A stretch of DNA of 64,000 bases from Emcibacter sp. (lineage in GTDB: Bacteria > Pseudomonadota > Alphaproteobacteria > Sphingomonadales > Emcibacteraceae), in contig JAJFIQ010000019.1 in NCBI GenBank assembly GCA_021774785.1, forward strand, positions 558,001 through 622,000. The letters are read 5' to 3'. How positions within the stretch are numbered: position 1 is the first letter of the stretch; each line of letters opens with the position of its first letter. The translations under genes and the position numbers were made by a program. Positions 31,320 through 49,239 of the stretch are shown in pieces. Under the pieces are notes generated by a model. It saw only the letters and a list, made by a program, of their open reading frames with translations. It ran no database searches and was not told the origin of the DNA.

Positions 31320-31320
31320 A

Positions 31321-31902
31321 TCAGCTTTCCGTAAAAATTTGTTTTTCGGCATAGGCACAGATGGAATGCCCAATCAGAATATGAGCTTCCTGAATTTTCT
31401 GAGTAACATCAGAGGGAACACAAATAGAATAATCACATAAAGCTTTCATGTCGCCCCCATGTGATCCCGTAAGGGCTATGGATATGACCCCCTTCTCCTT
31501 TGCTGCTATCAATGCTTTAACCAGATTTACCGACCGCCCTGACGTTGAAATTCCGATGAATATATCGCCCACAACACCATGCGCTAGTACCTGCCGTTCA
31601 AAAACCTTGTCAAAGCCATAATCATTGCCGATAGCAGTCAGAATTGAGCTGTCCGTCGTTAACGCCATTCCCGGAAGACCGGGTCTGTCCATGCAAAATT
31701 TCCCAACCAATTCAGCGGCTAAATGCTGTGAATCAGCGGCACTTCCACCATTACCGGCAAACATTACTTTGTTTCCCGCTTTTAGCGCCTTAGTCATAAC
31801 TTCACCAACATCTGAAATGGTTGACATCAGTTGTTCATCAGCACCAATCTTATTCAAAATTGAAATTGAATCGCTGATTTCCTGTTGCATATATCTCTTC
31901 AT
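31321..31902 (-). CDS. gmhA: Phosphoheptose isomerase
   Basis: A 193-aa SIS-fold enzyme that converts sedoheptulose 7-phosphate to D-glycero-D-manno-heptose 7-phosphate. The signature FAGNGGSAADSQHLAAELVGKF is split around the substrate Ser, and FIGISTSGRSVNLVKAL holds the second phosphate-binding loop. I chose the ATG at 31902: it overlaps the hddA stop as ATGA and has GGAGG a few bases upstream. First committed step of the heptose branch encoded here. Confidence 0.94.
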   Translation of the reverse strand: MKRYMQQEISDSISILNKIGADEQLMSTISDVGEVMTKALKAGNKVMFAGNGGSAADSQHLAAELVGKFCMDRPGLPGMALTTDSSILTAIGNDYGFDKVFERQVLAHGVVGDIFIGISTSGRSVNLVKALIAAKEKGVISIALTGSHGGDMKALCDYSICVPSDVTQKIQEAHILIGHSICAYAEKQIFTES

Positions 31903-32927
31903 TCTATCCTCCACCCTTGCGTACCACTTTTAGTAAAACTGCATTCCACTGCATATCCTGGATGATTTTCCAAAGCTCTGAGCACATCCATTTTTCTTTC
32001 TGGATTAACGATGAACATAAAAAAGCCCCCACCCCCGGCTCCAGACACTTTCCCAGCTTTTGCGCCGGAATTCAGAGCTGCCTGATATATTGCATCCAGA
32101 TTTGAATTGGTAACCTTTGCTGCGGTTCTCTTTTTGGCCAACCATGCCCGGTTCAACCCTTCGGCAAAGGCATCAATATTGCCCCGTAGCAAATTTTCCT
32201 TCATGCTTATGGCCGCTGTTTTGATTTCCTGTAAGGCAAGGATCGCTTGATCCTTATTATCACTTACATTTTTGGATTGCTGTTTAATGATGACTTCTGA
32301 ATCACGGGAAACATTGGTATAGAACAGCACCAGTGAGGATTCAAATTCTGATAAAATCCAGTTCTTAATACGTAAGGGATTCACAATAACCCGGTTATCG
32401 GCATGAAATTCCATAAAATTAAAGCCACCAAAGGTTGCCGCATATTGATCTTGTCGGCCACCGTCAAGTTTTGCATCCTGTCGTTCTATCTCAAAAGCAA
32501 GTTGTGCTATTTCATATTCACCAAGCGGTAAGTTTAAATATTCTACAAATGCCTTTACCATGGCAACGACCATGGTGGAGGATGAGCCCAACCCCGAACC
32601 GGGCGGGGCCTGACAATATGTGGTCATACGCAGTGCAATTGGCCGACCGTCGAGGAAGTCCCTAATAATTCTGTTATAGACCGCCTTGTGCAGTATAAGG
32701 TCTCCAGCTACCTCATATTCTGATCGAATATCGGATTCAAATTTTTTCTGAAGATCAGAGGCCACAAAAATAACTTTGCCAACATCCAGCGGTTCCAATG
32801 TAGCATAAGCATACATATTGATTGTAGCATTTAAGACATGTCCCCCATAGTGATCACAAAAGGGGGAAACATCTGTTCCGCCTCCGGCCAATCCCAACCG
32901 CAAAGGTGCTCTGGCTCTAACTAACAT
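31899..32927 (-). CDS. hddA: D-glycero-alpha-D-manno-heptose 7-phosphate kinase (GHMP family)
   Basis: A 342-aa GHMP kinase. It starts with RARAPLRLGLAGGGTDVSPF, the fold's first strand and loop. The ATP-binding motif PPGSGLGSSSTM lies near residue 110, and the C-terminal GKVSGAGGGGFFMF is motif 3. HddA phosphorylates C1 of heptose 7-phosphate in the alpha configuration for GDP-heptose, in contrast to the beta-specific HldE of LPS synthesis. It is coupled to gmhA by an ATGA overlap and lies 31 bp after the upstream glycosyltransferase. Confidence 0.92.
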   Translation of the reverse strand: MLVRARAPLRLGLAGGGTDVSPFCDHYGGHVLNATINMYAYATLEPLDVGKVIFVASDLQKKFESDIRSEYEVAGDLILHKAVYNRIIRDFLDGRPIALRMTTYCQAPPGSGLGSSSTMVVAMVKAFVEYLNLPLGEYEIAQLAFEIERQDAKLDGGRQDQYAATFGGFNFMEFHADNRVIVNPLRIKNWILSEFESSLVLFYTNVSRDSEVIIKQQSKNVSDNKDQAILALQEIKTAAISMKENLLRGNIDAFAEGLNRAWLAKKRTAAKVTNSNLDAIYQAALNSGAKAGKVSGAGGGGFFMFIVNPERKMDVLRALENHPGYAVECSFTKSGTQGWRIE

Positions 32928-34216: not shown

Positions 34217-36997
34217 TTATTTTAATAGTTTTTTAAGAAGGCTTTTAGCCTCTTCCATGCCATCAAAAATGCTGCCGGAACCGACAACCGTTTCCAGTTC
34301 CCGTCTGGCAGCATTAACGCTTCCCGAATTATTTAGCGCGACCGCAAGATGATAACGAACCTCCATCATTTTAGGGTCTTTTGATATAGCCTTTTTCAGG
34401 AGTTCCAATCCTCTGTCATTGTCACCCTGTTGAACCAATATCCAAGCATATGTATCGATAAATGAAGCCTCATTTGGAAATAGGTTATAGGCTTGATCTG
34501 CGGCTTTAAGTGCCTTTTCATCCTCACCGACCTGGCTATACAGCCAAGCAATATTATTAAGTGCAATAGGATTTTCCGCATTCTGCGCCAGAATTATCTC
34601 ATACTGCTCAATAGATTTTTTATGTTCTTGAACCCGTAGATAATATCCGGCCAATATATGACGGACTGCCAGATCACCTTGTTTTTCTGACAACCATGAA
34701 TGCATTAAACCTAATGCCTTATCAGTCTGGTCATTGGCAATATGCGCCCGAGCCAAATCAACCGTAAAACGGCTACCCTTGGCGCCCAATTCAGATGCTT
34801 TTAAAAAAATTTCCAATGACTCAGCATTTCTCCCCTGCATGGCGAGTAACCTACCTTCCAAAACATAGGACACAGCATTCTTATTGTTGATTTCCCTCAA
34901 CAAATCGATATAACGTTGCGCCTTATTAAATTTTTTGTCAGATGATTCCAAACCCACTAAGTCAATTAATAATGTGGACTTATTCTCAGTCATCAACAGG
35001 GCCTTTTCAAAGGTTTTTCGAGCCGCGGCCGTGTCACGGGATCTTAACTGAGCCCGCCCCAAAATTTGATAAGCATCAGCGTTATCAACTAGAATTGCTG
35101 CCATATGCTCAAAATTCACAACAGCTGAAGCCGTATCATTTCTTAGCAAATCAATATTTCCACTGGCTTCAAAGCCAGCTGCCTGATCTGGGAAATCGAT
35201 TATTATCTGTTGAGCCACAGCCTTAGCATGGTCAAATTTTTTCTGAAGAAGGAAGAATTCTGAAAATTCAATTCGAATACGAAGATTATTTGGCGCGGCT
35301 TCACTTATTCGTCGATAATAATCCTCAGCAGAAACATAGTCTTTATTCTTTTTGTATATACGGGCTAGCGCAATCATTGCACCGGCATGGTCTTTATTTG
35401 CCTTCAGAATATCCTGATAAACTGTAACAGCCTTAGCCTCGTTACCTTCAGCCAGCTCCAGTTGGGCCAAATTCATTAAAGCAGAATAGTAAGTGGGAGA
35501 AACCTCCAACGCCTTTTCAAAGAAACTTCTGGCTTGTTGTTTTTTCCCCTGCCCCAAAAATGCAGCACCCTTCAGGTTATATCCAATCGGATTATCCGTG
35601 GATTGCTTTATCAACATATCCGCGCTAGCAATGGCCGCTTCAAAATTCTTTTCACGCAATGAAATAAGAGTCATAAATACGGCGGCCTGCTTCGAATTGG
35701 GGTCTTTTTCCAGTATCTCCTGTAGATTTGACTGAGCTGCTCTTGCATCACCAGCGGCAAACCTGCTAAGGGCTAGTTGTGTTTTTAATTTATTTTCTTC
35801 CGGTTTAATTTTCACGGCTTTTTCAAAAAATTCAGTCCCCTGTTCATATTTACCAAGCTTCATATTGGCACTGCCCAATAATGCATAAACGACTGATCCG
35901 GCTTTTCCATCCTCCACAATGGGCATTAAAACCTTTACGGCCTGTGCTGGGTCATTTTTGCGCAGCAAAGATGCCCCGAGAAGGCGGCGGGCTACAACAT
36001 TATCAGGTGAGATTTTAATCAGTTTATTTAGGAAATAAATGGCCTGAGCATAACTCTGCCTGCTGTAGTTCATCACCCCTCTTAATATCAAGGCACCGGG
36101 AAAATTGTCTAGTGCCTGCCCGGATGCATTCAAAAACTCTTCTGCTTTTGTCATTTCATTTTTTTGAGCATAGATAACGGCAGATAAATAATTGGCAAGG
36201 GGGTGGTTCGGTATAATGGAAAAAATAAGATCAATTTTTTCCAATGCTTCATCAGGTCTTTTTAAATCAAAATAGATTGCTGCAACTTTAAATAATGCTG
36301 AAATATTTTTGGGATCATATTCCAATGCTTGTTCAAAAAATGGTAATGACTTGTCCGGGCCAAATTTTAGATTTAACAGTTCGCCTTTCAGGATCAGCCC
36401 TTTGACACTCTTTGGATTCAATGCAAGAACTTCGTTTATCTTATTTTCTGCCTTTCCCATTTTTTTCTTGAAATAATAAATTTGGGCAATAGCAATTGCA
36501 ATATTGTCATTTTTCCCTTTTAATTTTTCTCCTTTTTCGTAATAGCTAAGGGCCTTATCAAGATCGTTCAGCCCTTGATGGGCATTACCAATAATAAGGT
36601 ATGCTTCACCTTTTCTGTCCGCATCTACCACATCTTCATTAAGCGTATCCAATACCATTTGATACTGACGCTGTAATAATCTTGTTTTGCTCAAATTTAT
36701 TATAAGTTTTGCTGGTTCCATACCCAAGTCAATGGCACGCAAATATTCTTTTTCTGCAGAAGCGGCATTTCGGGCCTGAAGATATAAATCTGCCAGAGTG
36801 ACTCTGATTTGAGGATTTTTTGGTTCAGCAATAATAGCATTTTTCATCTGAATAATGGCAGCATTTACATCACCTTTTTTAACATATTCTTGTGCATCCT
36901 TGATATAGGAGGCACTCTTGTCACCACTTACTGCTGCAAAGCTGTGCAAAGATGTTCCCATAAATAATGCAATTGAAAATATTGCTATGTATTTCAT
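34217..36997 (-). CDS. prsT: XrtA/PEP-CTERM system TPR-repeat protein PrsT (copy 1)
   Basis: About 926 aa built almost entirely of tetratricopeptide repeats (roughly 20 units, with recurring A-x-x-x-A, Y-x-x-A and P-N/P-D elements at 34-residue spacing). The N-terminal unit AQEYVKKGDVNAAIIQMKNAI matches the PrsT family. I place the start at 36997: it has GAGG upstream and gives a clean signal peptide (MKYIAIFSIALFMG...SFAA). An ATG 42 bp earlier lacks a binding site and would put 14 polar residues before the signal. There is no lipobox Cys, unlike the second copy at 45550. PrsT is thought to act in the envelope in exopolysaccharide or PEP-CTERM handling. It follows prsR in the operon. Confidence 0.9.
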   Translation of the reverse strand: MKYIAIFSIALFMGTSLHSFAAVSGDKSASYIKDAQEYVKKGDVNAAIIQMKNAIIAEPKNPQIRVTLADLYLQARNAASAEKEYLRAIDLGMEPAKLIINLSKTRLLQRQYQMVLDTLNEDVVDADRKGEAYLIIGNAHQGLNDLDKALSYYEKGEKLKGKNDNIAIAIAQIYYFKKKMGKAENKINEVLALNPKSVKGLILKGELLNLKFGPDKSLPFFEQALEYDPKNISALFKVAAIYFDLKRPDEALEKIDLIFSIIPNHPLANYLSAVIYAQKNEMTKAEEFLNASGQALDNFPGALILRGVMNYSRQSYAQAIYFLNKLIKISPDNVVARRLLGASLLRKNDPAQAVKVLMPIVEDGKAGSVVYALLGSANMKLGKYEQGTEFFEKAVKIKPEENKLKTQLALSRFAAGDARAAQSNLQEILEKDPNSKQAAVFMTLISLREKNFEAAIASADMLIKQSTDNPIGYNLKGAAFLGQGKKQQARSFFEKALEVSPTYYSALMNLAQLELAEGNEAKAVTVYQDILKANKDHAGAMIALARIYKKNKDYVSAEDYYRRISEAAPNNLRIRIEFSEFFLLQKKFDHAKAVAQQIIIDFPDQAAGFEASGNIDLLRNDTASAVVNFEHMAAILVDNADAYQILGRAQLRSRDTAAARKTFEKALLMTENKSTLLIDLVGLESSDKKFNKAQRYIDLLREINNKNAVSYVLEGRLLAMQGRNAESLEIFLKASELGAKGSRFTVDLARAHIANDQTDKALGLMHSWLSEKQGDLAVRHILAGYYLRVQEHKKSIEQYEIILAQNAENPIALNNIAWLYSQVGEDEKALKAADQAYNLFPNEASFIDTYAWILVQQGDNDRGLELLKKAISKDPKMMEVRYHLAVALNNSGSVNAARRELETVVGSGSIFDGMEEAKSLLKKLLK

Positions 36998-37074
36998 TTT
37001 TTTTGCCTCATTTGAAATCCCAAAATTTGCTTTTTTCATAATAATTTCAATGTCTTTTGGAGAATAATAATATT

Positions 37075-38430
37075 TTATATTGTCAAATTATATTGTTTTA
37101 TCAGGCCATAAAATGTAGGCCTGCTGATCCCTAACATTTTTGCGGCTCTGCTGACATTTCCACTTGCCTGTGCCATCGCGTTATTAATAGCTTTTATATC
37201 GGCATTTTCTCTAACAACTTTTAAATTTAAGATATCCAGTTCATCTTCTTCAAGGTTAAGCTCCATATCTTCCGAAGTAATTTTACTTCCATCACACATG
37301 ATAACTGATCTCTTTATTCTATTTTCCAACTCACGAACATTTCCCGGCCAGCCATAAGAAGCAATGGACGTCAAGGCATCTTGAGTAAAACCCTTAATTT
37401 GTTTTTTAAGTTCATTATTGAATTTGGTTAGAAACGTTTTTGCCAGAAGTATAGAATCGCCCTCCCGCTCTTTTAGTGGAGGAACAGTGATGGTAATTTC
37501 ACTTAAACGGTAAAAAAGATCTTCCCTGAATTTGCCTTCCGTAATATCACTTTCCAGATTTTGATGAGTAGCGCATACAACCCGGACATCAACCGGAATT
37601 TCCTTACGCCCCCCAATACGTTCAATCACCCGTTCTTGCAAAAATCGAAGAAGTTTAACTTGTAGTGAAAACTGAAGATCACCAATTTCATCCAGAAACA
37701 GCGTTCCCCCTTCGGATAATTCAATTTTTCCTTTGGTTTGCTTGACGGCGCCCGTAAAAGACCCTTTTTCGTAACCAAACAATTCACTTTCAAGTAAATT
37801 TTCAGGTATAGCGGCGCAATTTATCGCAATGAATTTTCCATGCTTTCTATCACTAAGGTCATGGACGGCCCGCGCAAGAAGCTCTTTACCTGTTCCACTC
37901 GCACCTAACAATAAAACCGATACATTCGCCGGAGCAACACGCTCCACCATGTCACAGACTTTATACATATTTGGACAGCCCGTGATCAAGCCTCCAAATC
38001 GGACAGATTGGTTGCTATCTAATAAGCGCTTGTTTTCTTCCTCCAGATCATAAAGCCTGAATGCTCTATCCACAATTAATCCAAGCTGATCAGGGTCAAC
38101 CGGCTTTTGATAAAAATCATAGGCACCCAGAGAAATAGCCTTCAATGCGCTTTCATGAGCCCCATGGCCGCTGGCTACAATAATTTTTGTATTGGGAGCG
38201 ATTGCCAGAATTTTTTCCAGCGTATCAAATCCCACAGATGTACCGTCAGGATCAGGTGGCAAGCCGAGGTCTAATGTGACTACTGAGGGCTGTTCTGCCT
38301 CCAATGCTTTTATAGCGGCTTGTTGCTCTCCCACTATCGTTGCGTTATAGTCTTCAAAATTCCATTTATATTGCCTTTGAAGACCAGGATCATCCTCAAT
38401 AATGAGTAAATTTCTTTTTTCTTCATTCAT
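37075..38430 (-). CDS. prsR: PEP-CTERM system sigma-54-dependent response regulator PrsR
   Basis: A 451-aa NtrC-type activator. The receiver has its acceptor Asp in SVVTLDLGLPPDPDG. The central AAA+ domain shows the Walker A GASGTGKELLA, the sigma-54 contact loop as GSFTGA (Ser replacing the commoner Ala), the Walker B GGTLFLDEIGDL and the GWPGNVRELENR segment. A Fis-type helix-turn-helix closes the protein (NAMAQASGNVSRAAKMLGIS). PrsR proteins are known from exosortase A loci and are thought to activate PEP-CTERM genes. It overlaps prsK by 4 nt. Its likely target sites lie at 42267 and 42410 (see there). Confidence 0.93.
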   Translation of the reverse strand: MNEEKRNLLIIEDDPGLQRQYKWNFEDYNATIVGEQQAAIKALEAEQPSVVTLDLGLPPDPDGTSVGFDTLEKILAIAPNTKIIVASGHGAHESALKAISLGAYDFYQKPVDPDQLGLIVDRAFRLYDLEEENKRLLDSNQSVRFGGLITGCPNMYKVCDMVERVAPANVSVLLLGASGTGKELLARAVHDLSDRKHGKFIAINCAAIPENLLESELFGYEKGSFTGAVKQTKGKIELSEGGTLFLDEIGDLQFSLQVKLLRFLQERVIERIGGRKEIPVDVRVVCATHQNLESDITEGKFREDLFYRLSEITITVPPLKEREGDSILLAKTFLTKFNNELKKQIKGFTQDALTSIASYGWPGNVRELENRIKRSVIMCDGSKITSEDMELNLEEDELDILNLKVVRENADIKAINNAMAQASGNVSRAAKMLGISRPTFYGLIKQYNLTI

Positions 38431-40523
38431 TGCCCACTCCCCTCAACCAAACGCATATAAACCTTCATAGTAGTTCCTACGCCTTTTTCGCTTTTTACGC
38501 CAAGCTTTCCACCTAAACGCTTAATCATTTCACGGCTTTCATATGCACCAATGCCATATCCCTTTTTTTTCGTTGACCTGAATGGTCTGAATAATTCGTT
38601 CTTTATGAAGTCCTGTTCCATCCCGTGACCATTATCTTTCACTTTTATTATTGCAAAACCACCTTCACGTGTTAACTCTAGCTCAAGTTTTATATTGTCT
38701 TGTTCACAGGCCTCTTTGGCATTTTCAATGAGGTGCATAAAAATTGTCTCTACGCTTTCCTTGTCAGCATAAATTTCAATGTTATTTTCCTGCTTATTAA
38801 AAATGATATTTAAGCCGCTTTTTCCGTAATTTTTAACAACTTGTTCCATAATCTCGTTAATGTTTAGACTTTCATCCATTTTTCCCTTTGAGGGTTCCTG
38901 AACTACAGTGATACGTGAGAGCAAATTATTCATTTTTGCAACAGAATCTTGAACCGTTAAGACCATATCTTTTTGAAATTCCGGATTATCAGAATGTTTT
39001 TCCGCATTTTTTACGATAAGAGACAACTGACTCGTTAAATTTTTAATATCATGAACAACAAAAGCAAATTTACGATTAAAAGATTCAAATTCGCGAGATT
39101 CAGCAAGTGCCATTTCCGCAATCTGCTCCGCGAGATAACTGGCCAGTTGGCGACCAATGGTTTTAAGCAAATCCGTACTCTCCCAGTTCAGATTGCTTTT
39201 CACGCGCGGCTGAAGCAAAATAACAATCCCTACCAATTTTCCTAAATGGTTTAATGGCAAAACGAGCCAATATTGTGAATTGTTTAATAACCATTCCGGA
39301 ACTGGAAGGTTGTGTTGTTTTATTTTGCCTTCTACTATTTCATTATTCAGGTCAACAACCCACTCTTGCTTTTCAAGAAACTTGATAAATTTATCATCCG
39401 ATTGTAACTCGTGTTCGATATCATATCGGAAATTCCATTTTGCCGCTAGTTGATAAACATCTGGTTGTTCACATAACCATAGAGCACCACCAGAACTGTC
39501 CATCACGTCTGCCAGTGTTTTAATGACACGTTCCCGCAGGCCATAATGTTCATCTGTTGCGGATATTGTATTAATAAATTTTAGCCATTCATCCCTGTAA
39601 TCATATCGATATTGGAAAAAATGCTTTGACAATAAAACCTGTGTTAATGCCCTGAATCTTCCTGAGGTGATAAAAATAACCAGCCCCATAAGAGCCATTA
39701 ATATGAATGTAACCTGAAGTATATTACTCCATTTACCGCCAAAATTTTGCAGAAAAAAACCTGCTGCCGACATACCAATCAGGTAGGCACCTGTCCCAAT
39801 CAGCGTGATAGTATGAAAAGCGACCTTTCGGGATACTTGAACATTTAATTTCCATGTTGGGTTTCTGGTGGCGGCAACAGCGATGATCGGGATTATCAGA
39901 AAATTCACCATTCCCCGAGCTTGATATAATTTCATTCCAATCCCAGTGAAAAGAAGTATATCGGCATATAAAAGAAAATCATATATATAGAGTGCGGCAA
40001 CCGACAACAGCAATAATTTAATTCCCCACAATTGCTCTTTTGCAGAATTACGATAGAGATTTTCAATGAGTAGGAAAATAATAATACATTGAATTAAGCC
40101 ATTATAAATTTGATATTTTATGGGAAATTCATGTTTTACAATACTGGCAAAAAATCCTGTGTTCACAAGACTTAAAACCAGTGAAATTGATAGAAAAAAA
40201 GTTAAATATAATAATAATTTCTTTCCATAATTCTCGTTACCTTGCATCTTCCATATTCGTGATAATAAAAATGCGAAAAAGATAATCCAGGCTGCACCTC
40301 GTAAAGTTTCCAGAAAAGGCAGATATTTAATAATCTCACCCATATCCAGAAAGGCATATCCCGTCGCCAGCAACCATATGGCACTACTTATAAGCGCAGA
40401 TGTCAGCCACAAGCCTTCATATCGATTTTCTTTATTGATTATGAGGTAAGCAGCAAGTGCTAGATAAGCCAGCCCCGCAAGAACAAAAGTAATAAAGCCA
40501 ATATCGCTAAACTCTTTTTCCAT
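38427..40523 (-). CDS. prsK: PEP-CTERM system histidine kinase PrsK
   Basis: A 698-aa sensor kinase. About eight membrane helices in the first 280 residues are typical of PrsK, then a GAF-like domain (about 320-460) precedes the kinase core. The phosphoacceptor is in FAFVVHDIKNLTSQL (HDIKN type). ATP-binding boxes are HLIENAKEA, VKDNGHGM and KGYGIGAYES. The partner PrsR overlaps it by 4 nt (ATGA). It follows the priming sugar transferase by 9 bp. The signal is unknown for the family. Confidence 0.93.
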   Translation of the reverse strand: MEKEFSDIGFITFVLAGLAYLALAAYLIINKENRYEGLWLTSALISSAIWLLATGYAFLDMGEIIKYLPFLETLRGAAWIIFFAFLLSRIWKMQGNENYGKKLLLYLTFFLSISLVLSLVNTGFFASIVKHEFPIKYQIYNGLIQCIIIFLLIENLYRNSAKEQLWGIKLLLLSVAALYIYDFLLYADILLFTGIGMKLYQARGMVNFLIIPIIAVAATRNPTWKLNVQVSRKVAFHTITLIGTGAYLIGMSAAGFFLQNFGGKWSNILQVTFILMALMGLVIFITSGRFRALTQVLLSKHFFQYRYDYRDEWLKFINTISATDEHYGLRERVIKTLADVMDSSGGALWLCEQPDVYQLAAKWNFRYDIEHELQSDDKFIKFLEKQEWVVDLNNEIVEGKIKQHNLPVPEWLLNNSQYWLVLPLNHLGKLVGIVILLQPRVKSNLNWESTDLLKTIGRQLASYLAEQIAEMALAESREFESFNRKFAFVVHDIKNLTSQLSLIVKNAEKHSDNPEFQKDMVLTVQDSVAKMNNLLSRITVVQEPSKGKMDESLNINEIMEQVVKNYGKSGLNIIFNKQENNIEIYADKESVETIFMHLIENAKEACEQDNIKLELELTREGGFAIIKVKDNGHGMEQDFIKNELFRPFRSTKKKGYGIGAYESREMIKRLGGKLGVKSEKGVGTTMKVYMRLVEGSGQ

Positions 40524-40532
40524 CTAATAACC

Positions 40533-41921
40533 TTATCTCACGCCATCAGGCCATAATATGACACGTACAGTTTGTATAAGAATAAGAAAATCAAGGAACG
40601 AAGAATAATTCTTGATATAATAAAGGTCATACTCCAATTTACGTTTTGTATCTTCTTCCGAAGCACCATATGGATAATTAAGCTGTGCCCAACCCGTAAT
40701 TCCCGGTTTAACACGGTGCCGTTCCCTGTATAGAGGTATGGTTTCTTCAAATTGATCAACAAAAAAGGGGCGTTCCGGACGAGGCCCTACAAAACTCATC
40801 GCACCCATAAGAACATTGAATATCTGTGGAATCTCATCTATTCTTGATGCTCGTATCACACGACCAACCGGGGTTACACGGACATCATTCTTGTCCGCCC
40901 ATTTAGGAATGCCATCTTCCTCCGCATTAATAGTCATGCTTCTAAATTTCAGCACATTAAATATTTTTCCATTCATCCCAACTCTCTCCTGACGATAGAA
41001 TACAGGGCCTTTGCTGGTAATTTTCACGACGAAAGAGGTTATAATCAAAATAGGGAGACTCAGAATTAACAACAGCAGGCTGGCCGTCACATCAAATAGT
41101 CGTTTTAGAATAAGGTCGAAATCACCCACCCCCTCAAATCCATCAGAAAAAATCATCCAACTTAGGTTAAGATTATTCAAACTAACGGTTCCAGATTGAC
41201 GTTCGATAAAAGTTGTTGCTTCAATGATATGGCACCCTTTCATTTTGCAATCTAAAAGATCATCAATCGGCAGGGCACCGCGTCTTTCTTCAATAGCAAC
41301 GACGATTTCCTGTACAGAAAAATCTGTTACATATTCTTTCAGTGAATGCTCTTTGTTGTAGTCTTTGGCATTTTGAATTTTGTTTTCGGTATCATTAACA
41401 CGTAAAAAACATACAAATTCCACATCGTTTGATCCAATAGTGCCACATGTCCGCACCATATCTGCTCGTTCCCCTGCCCCTAATACAAGAACCCTCCTCT
41501 TCAGCCTTCTCAAATCAACAATACGCGTATAAATATAGCGATTTACTAAAAGCCCCACGAATGCAAAGAGCAATGCATAAACTAATACACTTCGCCATAA
41601 TTCTATATTTGGAAACATATAGAGCATGACTGAGAGAACAATAAAAGATAACCCCAAACTAGTCGTCAGACGAATTACCGTAACCCTTAAATCTCGACAA
41701 GCATCAAGCTGATAGAGTCCCGTGGCCAGCAATACAATGTAAACCACGAATGCAAAGGAAAAAACCTCAATAGCATAAAAGGAAAATGCAGGTATGCTGA
41801 GTTCAGCCTGTGTATAACGAAGATTTACCCCACCCCAAATTGCCCCAATCAGAATGAAACCTTCTAATAGCCCCAATATAAACAAAGACTTAGGAATATA
41901 ATGTCTAAATATTCTTATCAT
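40533..41921 (-). CDS. XrtA/PEP-CTERM system priming sugar transferase (TIGR03013/EpsB-like)
   Basis: A 462-aa polyisoprenyl-phosphate sugar-1-phosphate transferase that would start the EPS repeat unit on undecaprenyl phosphate. Four N-terminal helices, a central Rossmann-like CoA-binding segment (RRVLVLGAGERADMVRTCG) and one more helix precede the catalytic domain. The latter has KRLFDVTASLLLL, VLKFRSMTINAEEDG, SRIDEIPQIFNVL and SFVGPRPERPFFV. First gene of the minus-strand EPS operon; its upstream region of 700 bp is shared with the divergent PEP-CTERM gene. Confidence 0.93.
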   Translation of the reverse strand: MIRIFRHYIPKSLFILGLLEGFILIGAIWGGVNLRYTQAELSIPAFSFYAIEVFSFAFVVYIVLLATGLYQLDACRDLRVTVIRLTTSLGLSFIVLSVMLYMFPNIELWRSVLVYALLFAFVGLLVNRYIYTRIVDLRRLKRRVLVLGAGERADMVRTCGTIGSNDVEFVCFLRVNDTENKIQNAKDYNKEHSLKEYVTDFSVQEIVVAIEERRGALPIDDLLDCKMKGCHIIEATTFIERQSGTVSLNNLNLSWMIFSDGFEGVGDFDLILKRLFDVTASLLLLILSLPILIITSFVVKITSKGPVFYRQERVGMNGKIFNVLKFRSMTINAEEDGIPKWADKNDVRVTPVGRVIRASRIDEIPQIFNVLMGAMSFVGPRPERPFFVDQFEETIPLYRERHRVKPGITGWAQLNYPYGASEEDTKRKLEYDLYYIKNYSSFLDFLILIQTVRVILWPDGVR

Positions 41922-42266: not shown

Positions 42267-42287
42267 AGTGTCAGATTTCTTTACACT
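42267..42287 (+). promoter_or_regulatory. Candidate PrsR binding site (distal copy)
   Basis: AGTGT, 11 bases, ACACT: an inverted repeat whose spacer begins CAGATTT. The same 21-bp sequence recurs 143 bp downstream with one mismatch. Its centre is about 260 bp before the inferred transcription start, within the range of enhancer sites for NtrC-type activators. PrsR, the only sigma-54 activator in the window, is encoded nearby. Confidence 0.65.
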
Positions 42288-42409
42288 TTTACGGTTTCTT
42301 GGGAGATTTTCAAACAAAATCATAACCTATTGTTTTTAATGATAAATTTTATCTTTGCAACAGAAAACCATTCACTTCTCTTACCCTTTCTTATTCCATT
42401 AGTGGTAAT

Positions 42410-42430
42410 AGTGTCAGATTTTTTTACACT
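42410..42430 (+). promoter_or_regulatory. Candidate PrsR binding site (proximal copy)
   Basis: Second copy of the AGTGT-N11-ACACT dyad, differing from the distal copy only at one spacer base (T for C). Its centre is about 120 bp before the inferred start, the usual place for a sigma-54 enhancer. Repetition of spacer as well as half-sites argues for a specific operator rather than chance. Confidence 0.7.
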
Positions 42431-42513
42431 TATTGTTAAAATACATAATTTTCAGGGACAAAATATACTATTAATATAACTAATGCATTGTTACTATTGA
42501 TCTTTTTTAAAAT

Positions 42514-42529
42514 TGGCACAGCATGTGCA
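42514..42529 (+). promoter_or_regulatory. Sigma-54 (-24/-12) promoter of the PEP-CTERM gene
   Basis: TGGCACAGCATGTGCA matches the RpoN consensus: TGGCAC at -24, then exact spacing to the GC of the -12 element (GTGCA for TTGCA). Transcription would start near 42540, leaving a leader of about 95 nt. This agrees with the known sigma-54/PrsR dependence proposed for PEP-CTERM genes. Confidence 0.85.
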
Positions 42530-42634: not shown

Positions 42635-43411
42635 ATGAAAAAATTACTTTTAACAGTCGCTGCAATGCTAGGCATGAGTGTTCCTGTTGCTCAGGCGGGA
42701 CCGATTAATGTTGGTGGCGTTATATTCGACGCTGGCTCGATTTTCGAATTTGCCAATATTCAGGAAACTGCACCATTATCTGTTGGTGAAGAGTTGAAGG
42801 GTTTTGGTATTGTAACCCAGATCAATGGTCACTTAAATACTGGTGACTTATGTGTTGGTTGTGAATTAACATTCGTTTTTGATAGTTTTTTCGTAACGTC
42901 TCTAGGTGATGGGGATGATTTCGTTTTCTCTGGAGGATCAATTCGTTTCTATGTTGACTTCACACCGGATTATAGTATTTTTGATGCATCAAAAGCGGAT
43001 AATGACGGTGCTCTCTGGTTGGAACTTGCTGGTCATTCAATTACAAACACTAATTCTGGTCTTACCGGCACACTTATTTCAGAAAATGCAACACTTGACC
43101 CAACAGCCGGTAATAATTTTGGCCGTGGTGCCTTTGATGCTGTAGGTGGTATGGCTATGGGCAACTTTAATACCAATACGATTGATGATACAAGTATATT
43201 TGCTCCTAACCCTTATACTGTTAATGGCACAAATGCTGATTTCTTATTTACATCCAGCTTTCAAATTTCATCATTTCCGCTTAACCCTTCTTTCCCTGTT
43301 ACTGGTACAGGCGAGCTTAGAGGAAATGCGATACCAGAACCTGCGGGTCTTGGGTTGTTAGGATTTGGTTTAGTAGGACTTGGTTTGGTGGCACGCCGCC
43401 GTCGGTCTTAA
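42635..43411 (+). CDS. PEP-CTERM sorting domain-containing secreted protein
   Basis: A 258-aa exosortase substrate. The signal peptide spans residues 1-21 (KKLLLTVAAMLGM...AQA). A beta-rich Asn/Gly/Thr/Phe-rich body carries a single CVGC pair at 73-76. The C-terminal sorting signal has the PEP motif at 234-236, a Gly/Leu helix and an ARRRRS tail. Exosortase is expected to cleave near the PEP motif and release or anchor the protein at the surface. The start has AAAGGAC upstream. It has its own sigma-54 promoter with two upstream dyads, and a strong terminator follows. The body belongs to no family I recognise. Confidence 0.93.
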   Translation: MKKLLLTVAAMLGMSVPVAQAGPINVGGVIFDAGSIFEFANIQETAPLSVGEELKGFGIVTQINGHLNTGDLCVGCELTFVFDSFFVTSLGDGDDFVFSGGSIRFYVDFTPDYSIFDASKADNDGALWLELAGHSITNTNSGLTGTLISENATLDPTAGNNFGRGAFDAVGGMAMGNFNTNTIDDTSIFAPNPYTVNGTNADFLFTSSFQISSFPLNPSFPVTGTGELRGNAIPEPAGLGLLGFGLVGLGLVARRRRS

Positions 43412-43544: not shown

Positions 43545-45539
43545 TCAAAGAAACAGGTTTTGGATTTTTTTGCGAATTGATCGCTCCGGACTACGCTTTT
43601 TCCCCGGATAACCCACTCTGCCCGAGAATATAACATCCCCCATTCTACCACCCAACAGGCTATCGAAATCATGCCCTAGTCTGATGGCCTTATTTGCAAG
43701 GGATTTCTGTCCATTCGAAAAATCAATTTCCTTATCAGCGTAATAGCTAAAGCAGATGGTCGCCATGGAAGGTTGCAGCACAAGCCCCTGTTTTGTTGCC
43801 TGAAGCCAAAAACGTTGCAGTTTTTCCCCTGCTTGAAGTATTTCGGCAAGGTCTTTCTTGCCGCCCTTTTTCCACAAAAGAGCAAAATGTCCCGCACACT
43901 TATAGCCCGGCAGGATATCCATTTGCAGTCGTGCGAGAATAGTACCCCCTAGGTATTTATTCATGAAATCCATTTGAGACCAGTTTTGCATGGCTCGTTT
44001 CATAATCATTAGACTGAAATTATCCATACCCACGGCCCCAGCAGGCACTTTGTCACGGCTGTCTCCCGCGTTCCAGTCAATAATTTTCTGATGCACCTTA
44101 AAACAGGCCTTCATACGAAGCCGAATATCGGTTGCCCTAGCATTCAGACGGGCAAAACTTATCTTTTGTGCCGGTGTATCAAACCATACTATATCAAACA
44201 GATCTTCTATTTCATCCGAAAGAATATTTTTTGTGACATCATCCATTACCTTTGTCTGGTAAGAAAACCTGTTCACAGACCTTAAAGGCACATAATCCAG
44301 TAGAGGGTCTCTTTTTTCTTCTTTGAGTTTCCTGAAATTCACGTCTATTTTTTGTGCTCGACCATCCCACACCACATCTTCATGTAATTTCCACCGTAAT
44401 GACAGGCCATATGATGCTGCCGCCATCTTCATGGTTTCCAGCATCATACCAACGGAAAGATACGTCGGACGCCCCTGTTCAAATTCATAGGGGTTATTAT
44501 TTTCGATCTCAGGCAGATGAATGATTAATTTTCTTTCGCTTTTAATCTCAAAGCGCCAGGGTTGTACATTGTCGCCACTGGGTGCCCAGCGAGCCAGGTC
44601 TATAATTCCCTCCATGATAGACATGGACACTGCATTACTTTTATATACTGAAGCTTGCGAAAGTTTCGAATAGAGTTTGCGACCAATATAATATTTAAGC
44701 CGTTGTATGGGGTTTGCATTGCCAAAGGGTATATAACCCTTTCGCAAAACACCCCGATAGGCATCATAAAGCTGATAATGGGGTGCAGCCTTAACCTCGC
44801 CTCTGGAAAGAAGTACTTTAAGTGCTTCTGTCACCAGAAGGCCGGTGCTCAATTGTATGCCCATGGGAGTTGAGGGGACTTTCTGATTTTTCATATCCAC
44901 ATAGCTCGGATCGACCAGATATTCCCGGTGAAGAGGACGCGGCGTAAGACCAATCAGGAATTTAATGTATCTTTCTTCTTCGGTATCATGATCAGACATT
45001 TTGAAATAATCTTCAAAACTCATCCTGTCGGGAAGAAAAGTAAGTATCGCTGCCCCCATGCCCACTGGCGCACAGGTTATAGCAGGAATGGAAAGCTCAT
45101 GACACCGTTTGAAAACAGCGCGCCTGACATCCAATGCAAAAAAATCAAATCCATCGACAAGTAAGTCTACTCCTTCGAGAAACTCATCAATGTTACTTTC
45201 GCCAGATGCGTTAGATATACCTTTTCCAAAAGATTTAATTTCTAAATCCGGGTTAATGTCTATAGCCATCTCAGCCATAACATCAACTTTCTGCCGGCCC
45301 ACTGTAGACATAAAGGCGCCGGTCTGGCGGTTGAAATTTGCCTGTTCAAAAATATCCATGTCCGAAATATGAAATTTTGAAACGCCGAGGCGCGTCAGTG
45401 CAATAAGATATGCGCCCCCTACACCGCCCATTCCGGGAATGGCAATTTTTTTGTTTTGAAGCTGCAGTTGCTCACCTTTTGTAAGCCAACCTAAATTTCT
45501 CGAAAAAGCATCCGCATAAGAAAAATTTGATGAAGTCAT
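43545..45539 (-). CDS. E1-like (ThiF/MoeB) adenylyltransferase fused to nitroreductase-like domain
   Basis: A 664-aa fusion. Residues 1-285 are an E1-like activating domain: the nucleotide loop is GMGGVGG near 37, the Arg-finger NFNRQ near 88, and the catalytic-type DGFDFF is in the canonical place. The CxxC zinc pairs of MoeB/ThiF are missing. Residues about 310-600 match a nitroreductase fold (ARWAPSGDNVQPWRFEI, SVGMMLETMKMAAASYGL, LGRxx late), which binds FMN. Similar two-domain proteins are sometimes called MoeY; their role is not established. It ends an operon with a PEP-CTERM acyltransferase and PrsT copy 2. I infer activation of a carboxylate followed by a redox step on the same or a linked product. 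Confidence 0.82.
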   Translation of the reverse strand: MTSSNFSYADAFSRNLGWLTKGEQLQLQNKKIAIPGMGGVGGAYLIALTRLGVSKFHISDMDIFEQANFNRQTGAFMSTVGRQKVDVMAEMAIDINPDLEIKSFGKGISNASGESNIDEFLEGVDLLVDGFDFFALDVRRAVFKRCHELSIPAITCAPVGMGAAILTFLPDRMSFEDYFKMSDHDTEEERYIKFLIGLTPRPLHREYLVDPSYVDMKNQKVPSTPMGIQLSTGLLVTEALKVLLSRGEVKAAPHYQLYDAYRGVLRKGYIPFGNANPIQRLKYYIGRKLYSKLSQASVYKSNAVSMSIMEGIIDLARWAPSGDNVQPWRFEIKSERKLIIHLPEIENNNPYEFEQGRPTYLSVGMMLETMKMAAASYGLSLRWKLHEDVVWDGRAQKIDVNFRKLKEEKRDPLLDYVPLRSVNRFSYQTKVMDDVTKNILSDEIEDLFDIVWFDTPAQKISFARLNARATDIRLRMKACFKVHQKIIDWNAGDSRDKVPAGAVGMDNFSLMIMKRAMQNWSQMDFMNKYLGGTILARLQMDILPGYKCAGHFALLWKKGGKKDLAEILQAGEKLQRFWLQATKQGLVLQPSMATICFSYYADKEIDFSNGQKSLANKAIRLGHDFDSLLGGRMGDVIFSGRVGYPGKKRSPERSIRKKIQNLFL

Positions 45540-45549
45540 AGACTCTTAA

Positions 45550-48375
45550 TCACTCCGTTGTCAATTTCTCCAGTAAATCAAAGGCTTCTATTTGCCCCTC
45601 AAAAGGCCTTCCATCACGCTTTAAATCTTTCAGAATTTCTATGGCCTCTGTAGTTTGTCCATCTTTTACAAGTGCAATAACAAGATGATATTTGAACATA
45701 AGGTTATTGGGCGCATTATCAACGGCCTTTTTATATTGTCGTATGGCACCACTGACTTGCCCTTTGGCAAGGAGAATTTCCGCCTCTGTATCTAGATAGT
45801 CTGCAAAGTTTGGGTTAATCTCACGTGCTTTGCGTATTGTAGATAGCGCTTCATCAAGGTTATCCATTTTATAGTATGACCATGCTAAGTTGTTAAGAAT
45901 ACGCGGCTGAGTAGGATAAGACTTCAGTACAAAGTTATATTTTTCAATAGCTTTTTTGAAGTTTTCCAATTCAATATAGAAATTTCCTAGCGTAGATGTC
46001 GTAACCATATCATTGGGATGTTTCTGGATCCAACCTTCCATCAAATTTATGGCAGTTTCGATTTTTCCAGAAAGCCTATAAGCCGCTACAAGTTCTTGTA
46101 AGGCTGCGGTGCTTTTCCCATTTTGAAAACTTTTATCAAAATAAAATATCGCTTTCTCATAGTCTTTATTTACAATTTTTACACGCCCCCTGAGAGAGGA
46201 AAAATCAACATCATTATTGTAATCAGCTTTTACTTCGGAAAGGATATCATCCACTTTCTGCCAATTACCTTTTGCTGCTTCTGCCTTGGCAAGAAAAATT
46301 TTAGCTCTATCGTCGTCGGACTTAAGTGACAGTATTTTCTGGGCCACTGCATCCAGTTTCACATAATCCTTGTTGGCATCGTAGGCTGAGGCCAGAAACA
46401 TTAATGCGGCATAATTATTTTGTTTTTCTTTGACAAGTTTTTCAAAAGTTCGAGCTGCAGAATCAAATTGATTCAGAGCCATCTGTGCCTTTCCCCTAAC
46501 CTCAAATAGTCCTGCCGATTTTGGGAATAGCGGCATAATTTTATCACTAACCGTAAGAGTCTTCTCAGGCTGGTTGGATACCAGATAATGACGCGCCAAG
46601 TGAAGCACTGGCATATGGGCATTGGGGTCCAATTCAACAGATTTTTTTAATAATTCAATTGCTTCATCATTGTTACCAGACCTTAATTTAAGTAAATACA
46701 TGTCATATGTGGATTGCGCATCAGTCGGATGTAATTTTAAATATTGTGAGTGAACTTCCTGTGCTTTTTCCAATGCATTATTTTTCAGATGTATAGAAGT
46801 CGCCAACCGTGATGCCGCCTGATTGCCAGGGTCCTGAGCCAGAATCTCTTTAAAAGAAGTTAGTGCTTGCTGCAAGTCACCCTTTTTATATAGGGCCGTC
46901 CCCTCACATAATAGGCCGTTTACATTTTTTGGGTCAATTTTCTGAATCTCACGACAATTTACAATAGCTTCATCATACCTACTGGCAATGATCAATATTC
47001 TGGCGCGCTGCATTTTACGAAGATAGTCGTCTGTAACACCCTCCAGGGCCTTCTCCATTTCCCTCAAGCCGTCTTCAATTTCTCCTTCAGATATTTTCAT
47101 TAAAGCAAGCTTTCGGCGGCTTTCAATTTGTTGGGGGTTTTCTTCCAATGATTGTTCCAAATGTAGACGGGCTTGTTCGATATCACCCTTCTGTAATTCG
47201 TAACTTGCCAGAATATTCAGAAATTTTTCTTTCTTTTCAGCTTCGCCACTCATATCTTTCAGTGTTACGTAGGCCTCCTCATTTCTGTTCATACGGACTT
47301 GCAATGTAACCAAAAGTTCTTTGGCACGTAAGTCATCAGGTATAGCGTCCAGATATTGTTGAATATATGAGTAGCTCTGTTCATTTTCATCAAGGGCAAA
47401 TGTGGCCATTGCTGCGATGAATATCGTCCTAGTGTCACTCGGTGCCATTATTAATGCTTTTTCAGCAAAAATTTTGGCATCTGAATAATTTTGACTAACA
47501 ATGGAATATATTGCCGATACATAATTCACTAGGCCATTTTCAGGAGCAACTTTCCTAAATTTTAGCAACGTATCGCCAACGCCTTCGGACTTACCATTAA
47601 TAATCTTTACCCATACCAAATATATTTCATTGATATAAAAACTGGGGTAATACTCGACAAGTCTACTATAATAGCCCTCAACCGCGTCAAAATCCTTCGC
47701 AAACCAGCTACGTCCAGCTTTTAGCTGTAACAATTCCATATCATTTGGCAGAATATCCTCAGCAAGTGCGATATATTTATCCGTATTATCAATATCTTTT
47801 TTAAGAAAACTGATCCGCGCTTTTCCCACAAGAGCGCGCATGTTACCAGGCGTCGTCAGAAGAACTTCATCAAAATAATCTTCGGCTGTCTTAATCTCCC
47901 CTTTGCCAAGATGCGCGGAACCTAAAAAATTTCTTTTACCGAGCGAAATTAGAGTCACACTATCAGAGTCATATGAAATTTTTTCAATAATGAGGTCGAA
48001 CTTGCGCTGAAGTAACCAGCTTTCTGCAAGCGGAAGAATAGTGATACTTTCATCAATCCCCAATGTTGCAGATTTTTTAATTTCATTTTCAGCCGCAAAA
48101 CCCATGCCAAGTTCAAGATAAACCCTGCCAAGTAAAAAACGGGCATCCTTACTATCTGGGTATGTAATTAATGCATTTTTCAGCTCAATGACTGCTGCCT
48201 TTAAATTGCCATCGGATTGCCAGTTGAGCGCGCGCTCCATACGTTCTTCCAGACTTACCTTGCTTTCCCCCCCACAGGCAGAAAGCAATAAAGTCGCCGT
48301 AATAACAATAAGAAGCCCCACAATGGCTTGTCTACTCATAGAAATAATTTTAAAAAAAACTTGAGTTAACAACAT
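45550..48375 (-). CDS. prsT: XrtA/PEP-CTERM system TPR-repeat lipoprotein PrsT (copy 2)
   Basis: A 941-aa TPR protein with about 20 repeats. The signal peptide ends at the lipobox LLSAC (Cys34) followed by GGES, so it is a lipoprotein with no Asp at +2, suggesting outer-membrane sorting. The first repeat (RALNWQSDGNLKAAVIELKNALI) is the PrsT signature. The start at 48375 has GAGGA 6 bases upstream; a later ATG at 48339 has none. It differs clearly from copy 1 at 34217 in sequence and in anchoring. It lies 10 bp before the ThiF/nitroreductase gene and 51 bp after the acyltransferase gene. Confidence 0.91.
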   Translation of the reverse strand: MLLTQVFFKIISMSRQAIVGLLIVITATLLLSACGGESKVSLEERMERALNWQSDGNLKAAVIELKNALITYPDSKDARFLLGRVYLELGMGFAAENEIKKSATLGIDESITILPLAESWLLQRKFDLIIEKISYDSDSVTLISLGKRNFLGSAHLGKGEIKTAEDYFDEVLLTTPGNMRALVGKARISFLKKDIDNTDKYIALAEDILPNDMELLQLKAGRSWFAKDFDAVEGYYSRLVEYYPSFYINEIYLVWVKIINGKSEGVGDTLLKFRKVAPENGLVNYVSAIYSIVSQNYSDAKIFAEKALIMAPSDTRTIFIAAMATFALDENEQSYSYIQQYLDAIPDDLRAKELLVTLQVRMNRNEEAYVTLKDMSGEAEKKEKFLNILASYELQKGDIEQARLHLEQSLEENPQQIESRRKLALMKISEGEIEDGLREMEKALEGVTDDYLRKMQRARILIIASRYDEAIVNCREIQKIDPKNVNGLLCEGTALYKKGDLQQALTSFKEILAQDPGNQAASRLATSIHLKNNALEKAQEVHSQYLKLHPTDAQSTYDMYLLKLRSGNNDEAIELLKKSVELDPNAHMPVLHLARHYLVSNQPEKTLTVSDKIMPLFPKSAGLFEVRGKAQMALNQFDSAARTFEKLVKEKQNNYAALMFLASAYDANKDYVKLDAVAQKILSLKSDDDRAKIFLAKAEAAKGNWQKVDDILSEVKADYNNDVDFSSLRGRVKIVNKDYEKAIFYFDKSFQNGKSTAALQELVAAYRLSGKIETAINLMEGWIQKHPNDMVTTSTLGNFYIELENFKKAIEKYNFVLKSYPTQPRILNNLAWSYYKMDNLDEALSTIRKAREINPNFADYLDTEAEILLAKGQVSGAIRQYKKAVDNAPNNLMFKYHLVIALVKDGQTTEAIEILKDLKRDGRPFEGQIEAFDLLEKLTTE

Positions 48376-48426
48376 ATTTTCCTCACTTCAGATTGATTTT
48401 TTCATTCTTAAAGTTTTGTGTAATTA

Positions 48427-49239
48427 TTAATTCACATAAGGACCGCGATACGGCCAAAGCTGACCATAATCCGTAATAACCGCCCAAATTTCATGATGTG
48501 TTTCATATATTTTGTCGAGCACAGCACTAATTTCATTATATAATGTTCTGCGACGCCCATGGTATTCCACCAATTCCCCTACGGGAATAAAATAAATGCC
48601 GAGTTTTCTTAGCAACCTCTGTAAAGTTGGCTCGATGACAACAGACCAGTGCGTGATATCATGGTCAATGCTCATCCTGACAATCGCCTTCATCAGTCCA
48701 AGTGTAATATGGGGAATGACACGTTGTGGGTTATTCCGCTCACCTATATTTTCCTCAATACCGGGAATATGTGTATCATAGTGTCTTTTGCGAAATTGCT
48801 TGGAGATAGAAAATCGTGAAATTTCAGCGGTTCTGTTTCGTGGAAGTATCTTTTCACTCAGTTTTGCCAAATCATTGGAAACATTAAAGGCTGGCAAAGG
48901 TTCCTGCAGCACTTCATTAGGCGGCAATATCAGTCTGACTGTTCCTGCCATAATTCCGGTTCTCTTATGAATAAGAAGGCTTGAAATGGACCTATCATCA
49001 TAGATATCCCTTTCCAGGTGATCAACAAACTGTTTCTTGTCTTCAAAACCTGTTTCTACACAATAAACTTGATATCGCAGTTTAAAACACTCCTCAAGAA
49101 GAGCTGGTGTATCTGCGGCAATAACGTCAAAAAGCATATTATAGTCTTTTACTAACTTTATATCCCCGTTTGGGGGTTTATCACAGTTTTTAGCCTTTGA
49201 AAGCTGATTCTTCATAATTATGCGTAGTCCTTTAAGCAT
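48427..49239 (-). CDS. PEP-CTERM/exosortase system-associated acyltransferase (N-acyl amino acid synthase type)
   Basis: A 270-aa GNAT-like enzyme of the exosortase-associated acyltransferase family (TIGR03694-like). The core LLEECFKLRYQVYCVETGFED is the family signature and resembles acyl-homoserine-lactone synthases. A later HWSVVIEPTLQRLLRKLGIYF segment is conserved too. Relatives from environmental DNA make long-chain N-acyl amino acids, notably N-acyl tyrosines, from acyl-ACP. First gene of the minus-strand operon with PrsT copy 2 and the ThiF/nitroreductase fusion. An ATG 24 bp inside, with AAAGGA upstream, is an alternative start. No sigma-54 site found in front. Confidence 0.88.
   Translation of the reverse strand: MLKGLRIIMKNQLSKAKNCDKPPNGDIKLVKDYNMLFDVIAADTPALLEECFKLRYQVYCVETGFEDKKQFVDHLERDIYDDRSISSLLIHKRTGIMAGTVRLILPPNEVLQEPLPAFNVSNDLAKLSEKILPRNRTAEISRFSISKQFRKRHYDTHIPGIEENIGERNNPQRVIPHITLGLMKAIVRMSIDHDITHWSVVIEPTLQRLLRKLGIYFIPVGELVEYHGRRRTLYNEISAVLDKIYETHHEIWAVITDYGQLWPYRGPYVN

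Follow-up and report, generated by a model that had tools for sequence, protein, structure and literature searches.

What do three co-directional genes make that lie at 43545-49239 of a 64,000-nucleotide stretch of Emcibacter sp. DNA (contig JAJFIQ010000019.1, positions 558,001 to 622,000; this whole stretch is the window), and how is their product connected with the exosortase region around them? The genes encode an N-acyl amino acid synthase (NAS, OxzA/NasY-like), a second PrsT-type tetratricopeptide repeat (TPR) lipoprotein (PrsT2), and a ThiF-like cyclase fused to a flavin-dependent oxidase (OxzB/TrzS-like; the fusion). The reading preferred here, at a probability of roughly three in four, is that an OxzAB-type pathway has been built into an XrtA/PEP-CTERM exopolysaccharide locus; judged from gene content and predicted structures, the most likely product of the three genes is a ring-closed amino acid with a fatty-acid tail.

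The three-gene cluster and its fusion protein

A check of the open reading frames (ORFs) reproduces, exact to the base, the module described in a first-pass annotation of the window, with all three genes on one strand and separated by 51 and 10 bp. The NAS ORF scores 234.7 bits against TIGR03694, the PEP-CTERM/exosortase acyltransferase family (curated cut-off 111.95), and is barely above the cut-offs of the Pfam FeeM (29.4 vs 27) and autoinducer-synthase (24.4 vs 24) families. PrsT2 scores 520 bits against TIGR02917 (cut-off 312), and a lipobox (LLLSAC) is seen in its sequence. Residues 13-263 of the fusion match ThiF (PF00899, 127 bits) and residue 299 onward nitroreductase (PF00881, 32.8 bits). 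As a whole, the protein exceeds, with 380.6 bits, the cut-off of 266 for NF006077/PRK08223, a ThiF family without a functional name, and in the NCBIfam profile search it stays below the cut-offs of the fusion families PRK14851, PRK14852 and Rv1355c (TrzS), for the last of these (NF005901) far below, at 123.8 bits against 476.

The predicted model of the fusion (predicted local distance difference test score, pLDDT, 85; predicted template modelling score, pTM, 0.57) leaves the mutual placement of the two domains uncertain. In a structure search with this model, the ThiF half (residues 5-276) matches AclA (9egb, Z 24.2), MoeB (1jw9, 23.9) and ThiF (1zud, 23.7), and the oxidase half (residues 305-664) matches Acg (2ymv, Z 25.7, root-mean-square deviation 3.2 over 296 residues). 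By sequence, the nearest solved relatives of the ThiF half are the TcdA enzymes (ct6A-forming dehydratases), which carry out an ATP-dependent ring closure of N-carbamoyl threonine on tRNA and, unlike the fusion, act on tRNA and have no oxidase. The ThiF nucleotide-site residues, including the Asp of the VDGxD stretch, are present in the fusion; eleven of them (G36, G38, G39, G41, D60, D62, N70, R71, Q72, K84 and D129) are invariant across 18 fusions, and the same eleven are kept in 16 ThiF proteins of the phylum sample described below, save for one D60E. The stretch RWxPSxDNxQPW, R473 and Q589 are likewise conserved in the 18 fusions, as possible counterparts of R540 and Q651 of TrzS. By architecture the fusion is of the OxzAB/TrzAS kind, with a predicted enzyme activity.

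OxzAB of Pseudoalteromonas rubra, reportedly described by de Rond in 2021, the year in which this kind of product is said to have been first described, is likewise proteobacterial and, compared by description, likewise consists of a NAS and one ThiF-nitroreductase fusion; unlike OxzAB, the genes here have PrsT2 between them and lie inside an XrtA locus. The PEP-CTERM/exosortase-linked N-acyl amino acid synthases reportedly described by Craig in 2011 are of the same TIGR03694 type in an exosortase locus, to which ThiF/oxidase and PrsT2 are added here. TrzAS (Rv1356c/Rv1355c) of mycolic-acid bacteria shares the two-protein architecture, and Acg 2ymv is also the nearest oxidase structure reported for TrzS in the 2025 TrzAS paper. 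The same three activities, known or predicted, occur in TyzABC of M. tuberculosis and in the stieleriacine, kyonggic acid and thalassotalic acid clusters, where ThiF and oxidase are separate proteins, in contrast to the fused form in the window.

A pathway can be proposed on this footing. Judging from family and fold, NAS would N-acylate an amino acid, probably an aromatic one, with a fatty acyl group taken from acyl carrier protein or coenzyme A. By analogy with published chemistry, the ThiF domain would adenylate the carboxylate, the amide oxygen would close a five-membered oxazol-5(4H)-one (azlactone), and the flavin mononucleotide (FMN) oxidase domain would desaturate the alpha-beta bond with O2. 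The product would be an N-acyl oxazolone, which may hydrolyse open to an N-acyl dehydro-amino acid. More speculatively, PrsT2 might handle this lipid, or the polysaccharide machinery that it serves, at the envelope. The first-pass suggestion that the fusion activates the carboxylate of an N-acyl amino acid and then oxidises it is probably right: it matches the OxzB/TrzS reaction as given in the published accounts, where the ThiF domain closes the ring with ATP and the flavin oxidase desaturates with O2, steps that have been shown for TrzS and reported for OxzB (PMC12856293, PMC10404671). The suggestion that the small molecule would be new has to be given up, as both the enzyme pair and the product class had been described earlier.

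Pairing of ThiF with NAS

TIGR03694-type NAS is present in 19/19 relatives of the source genome that carry the fusion (close named relatives include metagenome-assembled genomes, MAGs, of Emcibacter). In the phylum sample, each of the 18 ThiF-positive genomes has a NAS at most about 5 kb from ThiF, of the TIGR03694 type in 16 and of the FeeM type in two (G326 and G377). Across 80 contig loci a NAS is found within 1.5 kb in 50 (39 of the TIGR03694 type, 11 of the FeeM type). The closest pairing is on a plasmid of Nitratidesulfovibrio vulgaris (NZ_CP116248.1, L202:14077-17001), where one protein of 974 residues contains FeeM (150 bits), ThiF (167 bits) and nitroreductase (37.5 bits); the three activities are thus directly linked. 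Near this gene are a TPR protein above the PrsT cut-off and PEP-CTERM genes, and the plasmid also carries an exosortase at a distance of about 27 kb. A plasmid search for relatives of the fusion returned four records, three from Nitratidesulfovibrio and one from Bdellovibrio (ThiF part only). In Sedimenticola, the ORF upstream of the fusion (L085:7669-8979) combines a weak TIGR03694 match (28.6 bits) with a CRP-like match and is possibly a NAS under cyclic-nucleotide control.

These pairings bear on one further reading of the fusion, suggested by its E1-like fold, namely that it modifies a ribosomal peptide as do E1-like proteins with nitroreductase-type partners in azole-forming pathways; the 18/18 NAS pairing and the FeeM-ThiF-oxidase fusion point to a small molecule instead, and the azole-peptide reading, without support here (no search was aimed at precursor peptides or YcaO genes), is highly improbable.

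Association of the cyclase with exosortase

Among 99 relatives, exosortase is present in 18/19 genomes with the fusion and 60/80 without (one-sided p = 0.048), a contrast too weak by itself with the background already so high; a phylum sample of 397 Pseudomonadota genomes (completeness 90% or more) was therefore drawn. OxzB-type ThiF was called with profile A1 at E <= 1e-60, a threshold that favours the window's subgroup and places distant oxazolone enzymes (e.g. those of mycobacteria) outside the count, and exosortase was called with PF09721, certain matches being weak though above cut-off (34.8 bits in G472, 58 bits in G211). ThiF occurs in 18/397 genomes and exosortase in 97/397; exosortase is present in 17/18 ThiF-positive vs 80/379 ThiF-negative genomes (p = 1.8e-10), the latter figure also meaning that the converse fails. 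The sample includes related genomes, the 18 ThiF genomes representing 12 genera; counted by genus, exosortase is present in 11/12 vs 60/220 (p = 1e-5). TIGR03694 matches at 1e-10 were obtained in 45/397 genomes, of which seven below the curated cut-off were set aside; of the remaining 38, ThiF is found in 16/28 with exosortase and 0/10 without (p = 0.0014). Where ThiF and exosortase share a contig they lie within 50 kb of each other (3 to 45 kb) in 12/14 cases; the outliers are G018 (0.37 Mb) and G211 (more than 1 Mb), and in three genomes the two are on separate contigs.

A second set of 50 genomes was reached via named loci (50 of the 80; the 30 left out beforehand comprised 6 loci from the genus of the window, 4 that were already in the phylum sample or among the relatives, and 20 others, mostly short MAG contigs). 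Exosortase is found in 46 of these, in a few by weak matches, and no match was obtained in L089, L101 (Undibacterium pigrum), L108 (Fluoribacter gormanii) and L120. The restriction to exosortase-positive genomes envisaged by the first-pass annotation thus largely stands in the phylum sample and the second set, with a weak contrast among the relatives; the opposite pattern that it had named, a fusion occurring mostly without acyltransferase or exosortase genes, did not appear.

Which part of the pathway travels with exosortase was examined with an oxidase-half profile (A3, E <= 1e-5) run on the 18 ThiF genomes. Strong matches are found in six (G000, which is the source genome, G018, G105, G376, G377 and G401) and weak ones in two, adjoining ThiF in G368 and elsewhere in the genome in G350; no match was obtained in 10/18 (11/18 counting G350), although a more diverged oxidase could escape the profile. 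Because 11/18 ThiF genomes gave no matching oxidase, it is cyclisation rather than oxidation that looks like the conserved step, and what travels with exosortase looks like NAS plus cyclase. In G350 and G364 the gene order is exosortase, PrsT, ThiF, NAS.

In the accessible parts of the literature on exosortase/oxazolone and PEP-CTERM/ThiF, a ThiF-exosortase association was not found stated, although the 2011 and 2021 papers might contain it, and the accessible parts of PMC8776678, PMC3226654, PMC4897644 and PMC4886054 have no bearing on it. A Rubrivivax biofilm-locus table lists two UBA/THIF proteins among PEP-CTERM genes; the 2020 stieleriacine paper proposes a functional link to exopolysaccharide-associated protein sorting, and its 2025 follow-up sets clusters with NAS, ThiF and nitroreductase genes side by side. 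Within the reach of these searches, what is new is that counts tie the cyclase to exosortase, that a form occurs in which no oxidase was detected, that one protein in an exosortase locus unites all three activities, and that PrsT2 forms the clade described next.

PrsT2 and gene order

The order NAS-PrsT2-fusion is found on one contig in eight genomes of the window's family (G000, G002, G009, G012, G013, G016, G017 and G018), and the triple is therefore not a chance arrangement; in G015 it is split over two contig ends in a manner consistent with the same order, and G014 gives no decision either way. Among the loci examined, a PrsT lies between NAS and fusion only in this family. In other families of the order NAS directly adjoins the fusion, followed in G038, G064 and G033 by TIGR03013-PrsK genes, and in a further family (G034, G046, G051, and G040 at a contig end) NAS adjoins PrsT2 and the fusion was not found. 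The conserved three-gene synteny that the first pass had proposed to look for is seen within the window's family; outside it, the NAS gene often sits right next to the fusion gene, or is accompanied by PrsT with no fusion.

PrsT2 of both families forms one NAS-adjacent clade of 11 rows (approximate likelihood-ratio support, SH-aLRT, 96), apart from the PrsKR-linked PrsT, in a quick tree that has some long branches and uneven composition and omits duplicate loci and PrsT ORFs under 750 residues; for the counts in relatives, at most eight PrsT candidates were scored per genome. NAS- or ThiF-linked PrsTs elsewhere fall outside this clade, so the linkage has several origins. The idea that an adjacent PrsT is part of the system everywhere was rejected, since the tree requires at least six changes of the NAS/ThiF-linked label. 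In the window PrsT2 does not neighbour PrsK or PrsR; it is the other PrsT that adjoins PrsR. The source genome has a third PrsT-type gene on another contig (G000:C19:564199-566880).

In the fusion-less congeners G011, G010 and G007, with a NAS that shares just 30-31% identity with that of the window, an MMPL/HAE3-type transporter lies between NAS and TIGR03013. Transporters of this type belong to a class that moves lipids. The tyz genes of M. tuberculosis adjoin mmpL9 according to the 2023 TyzABC paper, and by this analogy the product may be handled at the envelope.

The surrounding region

The features of the region are collected in Table 1. Two XrtA-system glycosyltransferases also lie to the left of the cluster within the window. 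The exosortase of the source genome (G000:C11:633633-634379) lies past the right end of the window, 26-30 kb from the cluster genes, together with FemAB, deacetylase, ATPase, tyrosine autokinase, chain-length and outer-membrane genes. GDP-heptose-type genes that lie within the PEP-CTERM region, most of them below equivalog cut-offs, suggest heptose in the glycan.

Upstream of the convergent PEP-CTERM gene are two motif-1-like sites, both exact copies of GTGTCAGATTTYTTTACACTT, with no further copy in the genome at up to three mismatches. A sigma-54-like site follows 82 bases after the second copy and 106 bases before the PEP-CTERM start; one-mismatch matches of this kind are at chance level in the window (6 found, 5.1 expected). 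The spacing of the predicted sites fits the motif 1/motif 2 arrangement of Haft 2006. Control of the NAS cluster by motif 1 was rejected, no copy being found near the NAS gene with up to three mismatches. Scans for sigma-70 promoters (25 found vs 17.4 in shuffles) and terminators (7 vs 5.0) were not used.

Table 1. Features of the cluster and its surroundings (window positions unless a locus is named)
Feature	Position	Strand	Remarks
NAS (OxzA/NasY-like)	48427..49239	-	270 aa; TIGR03694
PrsT2, second PrsT-type TPR lipoprotein	45550..48375	-	941 aa; TIGR02917
ThiF-like cyclase fused to flavin-dependent oxidase	43545..45539	-	664 aa
PEP-CTERM protein, convergent neighbour	42635..43411	+	PF07589 22.4 bits, cut-off 20.7; PepA-like below cut-off
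Sigma-54-like -24/-12 site	42514..42528	+	one mismatch
Motif-1-like predicted PrsR site, copy 2	42411..42431	+	
Motif-1-like predicted PrsR site, copy 1	42268..42288	+	upstream of PEP-CTERM gene
XrtA-system sugar transferase	40533..41921	-	TIGR03013, 533 bits
PrsK histidine kinase	38427..40523	-	TIGR02916, 658 bits
PrsR sigma-54 response regulator	37075..38430	-	TIGR02915, 682 bits
Main PrsT, beside PrsR and PrsK	34217..37039	-	TIGR02917, 607 bits
GDP-heptose-type genes (HddA, GmhA, HddC, GmhB like)	30066-32927	-	
MMPL/HAE3-type transporter	L149:8373-10733		fusion-less congener, beside NAS
MMPL/HAE3-type transporter	L150:8287-10587		fusion-less congener, beside NAS
MMPL/HAE3-type transporter	L151:5412-7796		fusion-less congener, beside NAS

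Nature of the product

Several observations weigh against an OxzAB-type pathway built into the XrtA locus. The product class is a prediction from genes and modelled folds, and the likeness to TrzS is drawn from architecture rather than from its residues D217, R540 and Q651. ThiF is absent from 12/28 genomes with NAS and exosortase, so the pathway is optional. Of 44 loci from other genera than that of the window, each with 5 kb or more of sequence on both flanks, 23 show no XrtA-system marker in the available sequence and 21 do. In 30 of the 80 contig loci there is no NAS within 1.5 kb; in seven of these the upstream sequence ends before 1.5 kb, four are triples of the window's own genus with PrsT2 in between, three have a NAS 2 to 7 kb off, and 16 have none in the available sequence, Janthinobacterium accounting for six of the 16 (L098, L099, L100, L111, L112 and L115). 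In these six loci ThiF and oxidase are separate neighbouring ORFs, and each genome has two exosortases.

A further counterpoint is that, in published work, the NAS-ThiF-oxidase clusters of Stieleria, Massilia and Thalassotalea gave open dehydrotyrosines and no oxazolone. The ring may accordingly be merely an intermediate, the released product being an open N-acyl dehydro-amino acid like the stieleriacines, kyonggic acids and thalassotalic acids, and the 2020 paper did draw the stieleriacine route via a ring, a cyclic intermediate proposed by analogy with the tRNA threonylcarbamoyladenosine dehydratase reaction. However, oxazolone formation is reported for OxzAB, TyzABC and TrzAS, work-up in acid or methanol opens the ring, so that the open forms may be artefacts, and the stieleriacine, kyonggic acid and thalassotalic acid clusters encode ThiF and oxidase as two proteins, in contrast to the fusion here. 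A released open product is thus a possible outcome, put at well below even odds.

The NAS product could also be a diffusible signal like the acyl-homoserine lactones (AHLs), tuned by the fusion. The predicted NAS model (pLDDT 82) has its Foldseek matches in LasI (1ro5), BjaI (5w8e) and FeeM (2g0b), which would suit such a role, and published discussion points to the AHL likeness; however, a signal would be compatible with an OxzAB-type pathway and is no exclusive alternative to it, and in its own right it is considered unlikely.

Less likely again, and put at long odds, is that the azlactone serves as an activated acyl donor, its ring yielding to attack by an amine or hydroxyl of the polysaccharide, a PEP-CTERM protein or another lipid and leaving an N-acyl-aminoacyl group attached to surface material. 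The retention of ThiF and NAS without a detected oxidase in 11/18 genomes and the tight exosortase link would fit such a role. In general chemistry the saturated azlactone is a reactive acylating agent, which also favours it, but the desaturated oxazolone is a weaker acyl donor, and neither an acyl acceptor nor a dedicated transferase was found. In Methylomonas LW13, according to the published study, disruption of an exosortase-type NAS abolished a distinct polysaccharide band and growth in a gradient system, defects restored by complementation, with planktonic growth unharmed. The lost band is consistent with acylation of surface material; however, since growth in the gradient was lost as well, the missing band may be a growth effect, and the evidence concerns NAS. 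A broader form, in which exosortase loci own an N-acyl amino acid to azlactone chemistry, with the saturated azlactone as a conserved currency that lipid-anchors surface polysaccharide or sorted proteins and with the oxidase giving a stable oxazolone in some lineages, would include the lipid modification of sorted proteins suggested in the first pass and is just as doubtful.

Significance

An OxzAB-type pathway within the XrtA/PEP-CTERM locus remains the preferred reading. The question of what NAS does in exosortase loci goes back to 2011, when the two were linked, and it is now testable via the predicted azlactone/oxazolone class; the cyclase that marks exosortase genomes, the form without a detected oxidase and the three-in-one fusion make it testable as well. 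If the preferred reading is true, oxazolone lipids, which according to the literature have no settled physiological role, would be tied to the assembly of the biofilm matrix.

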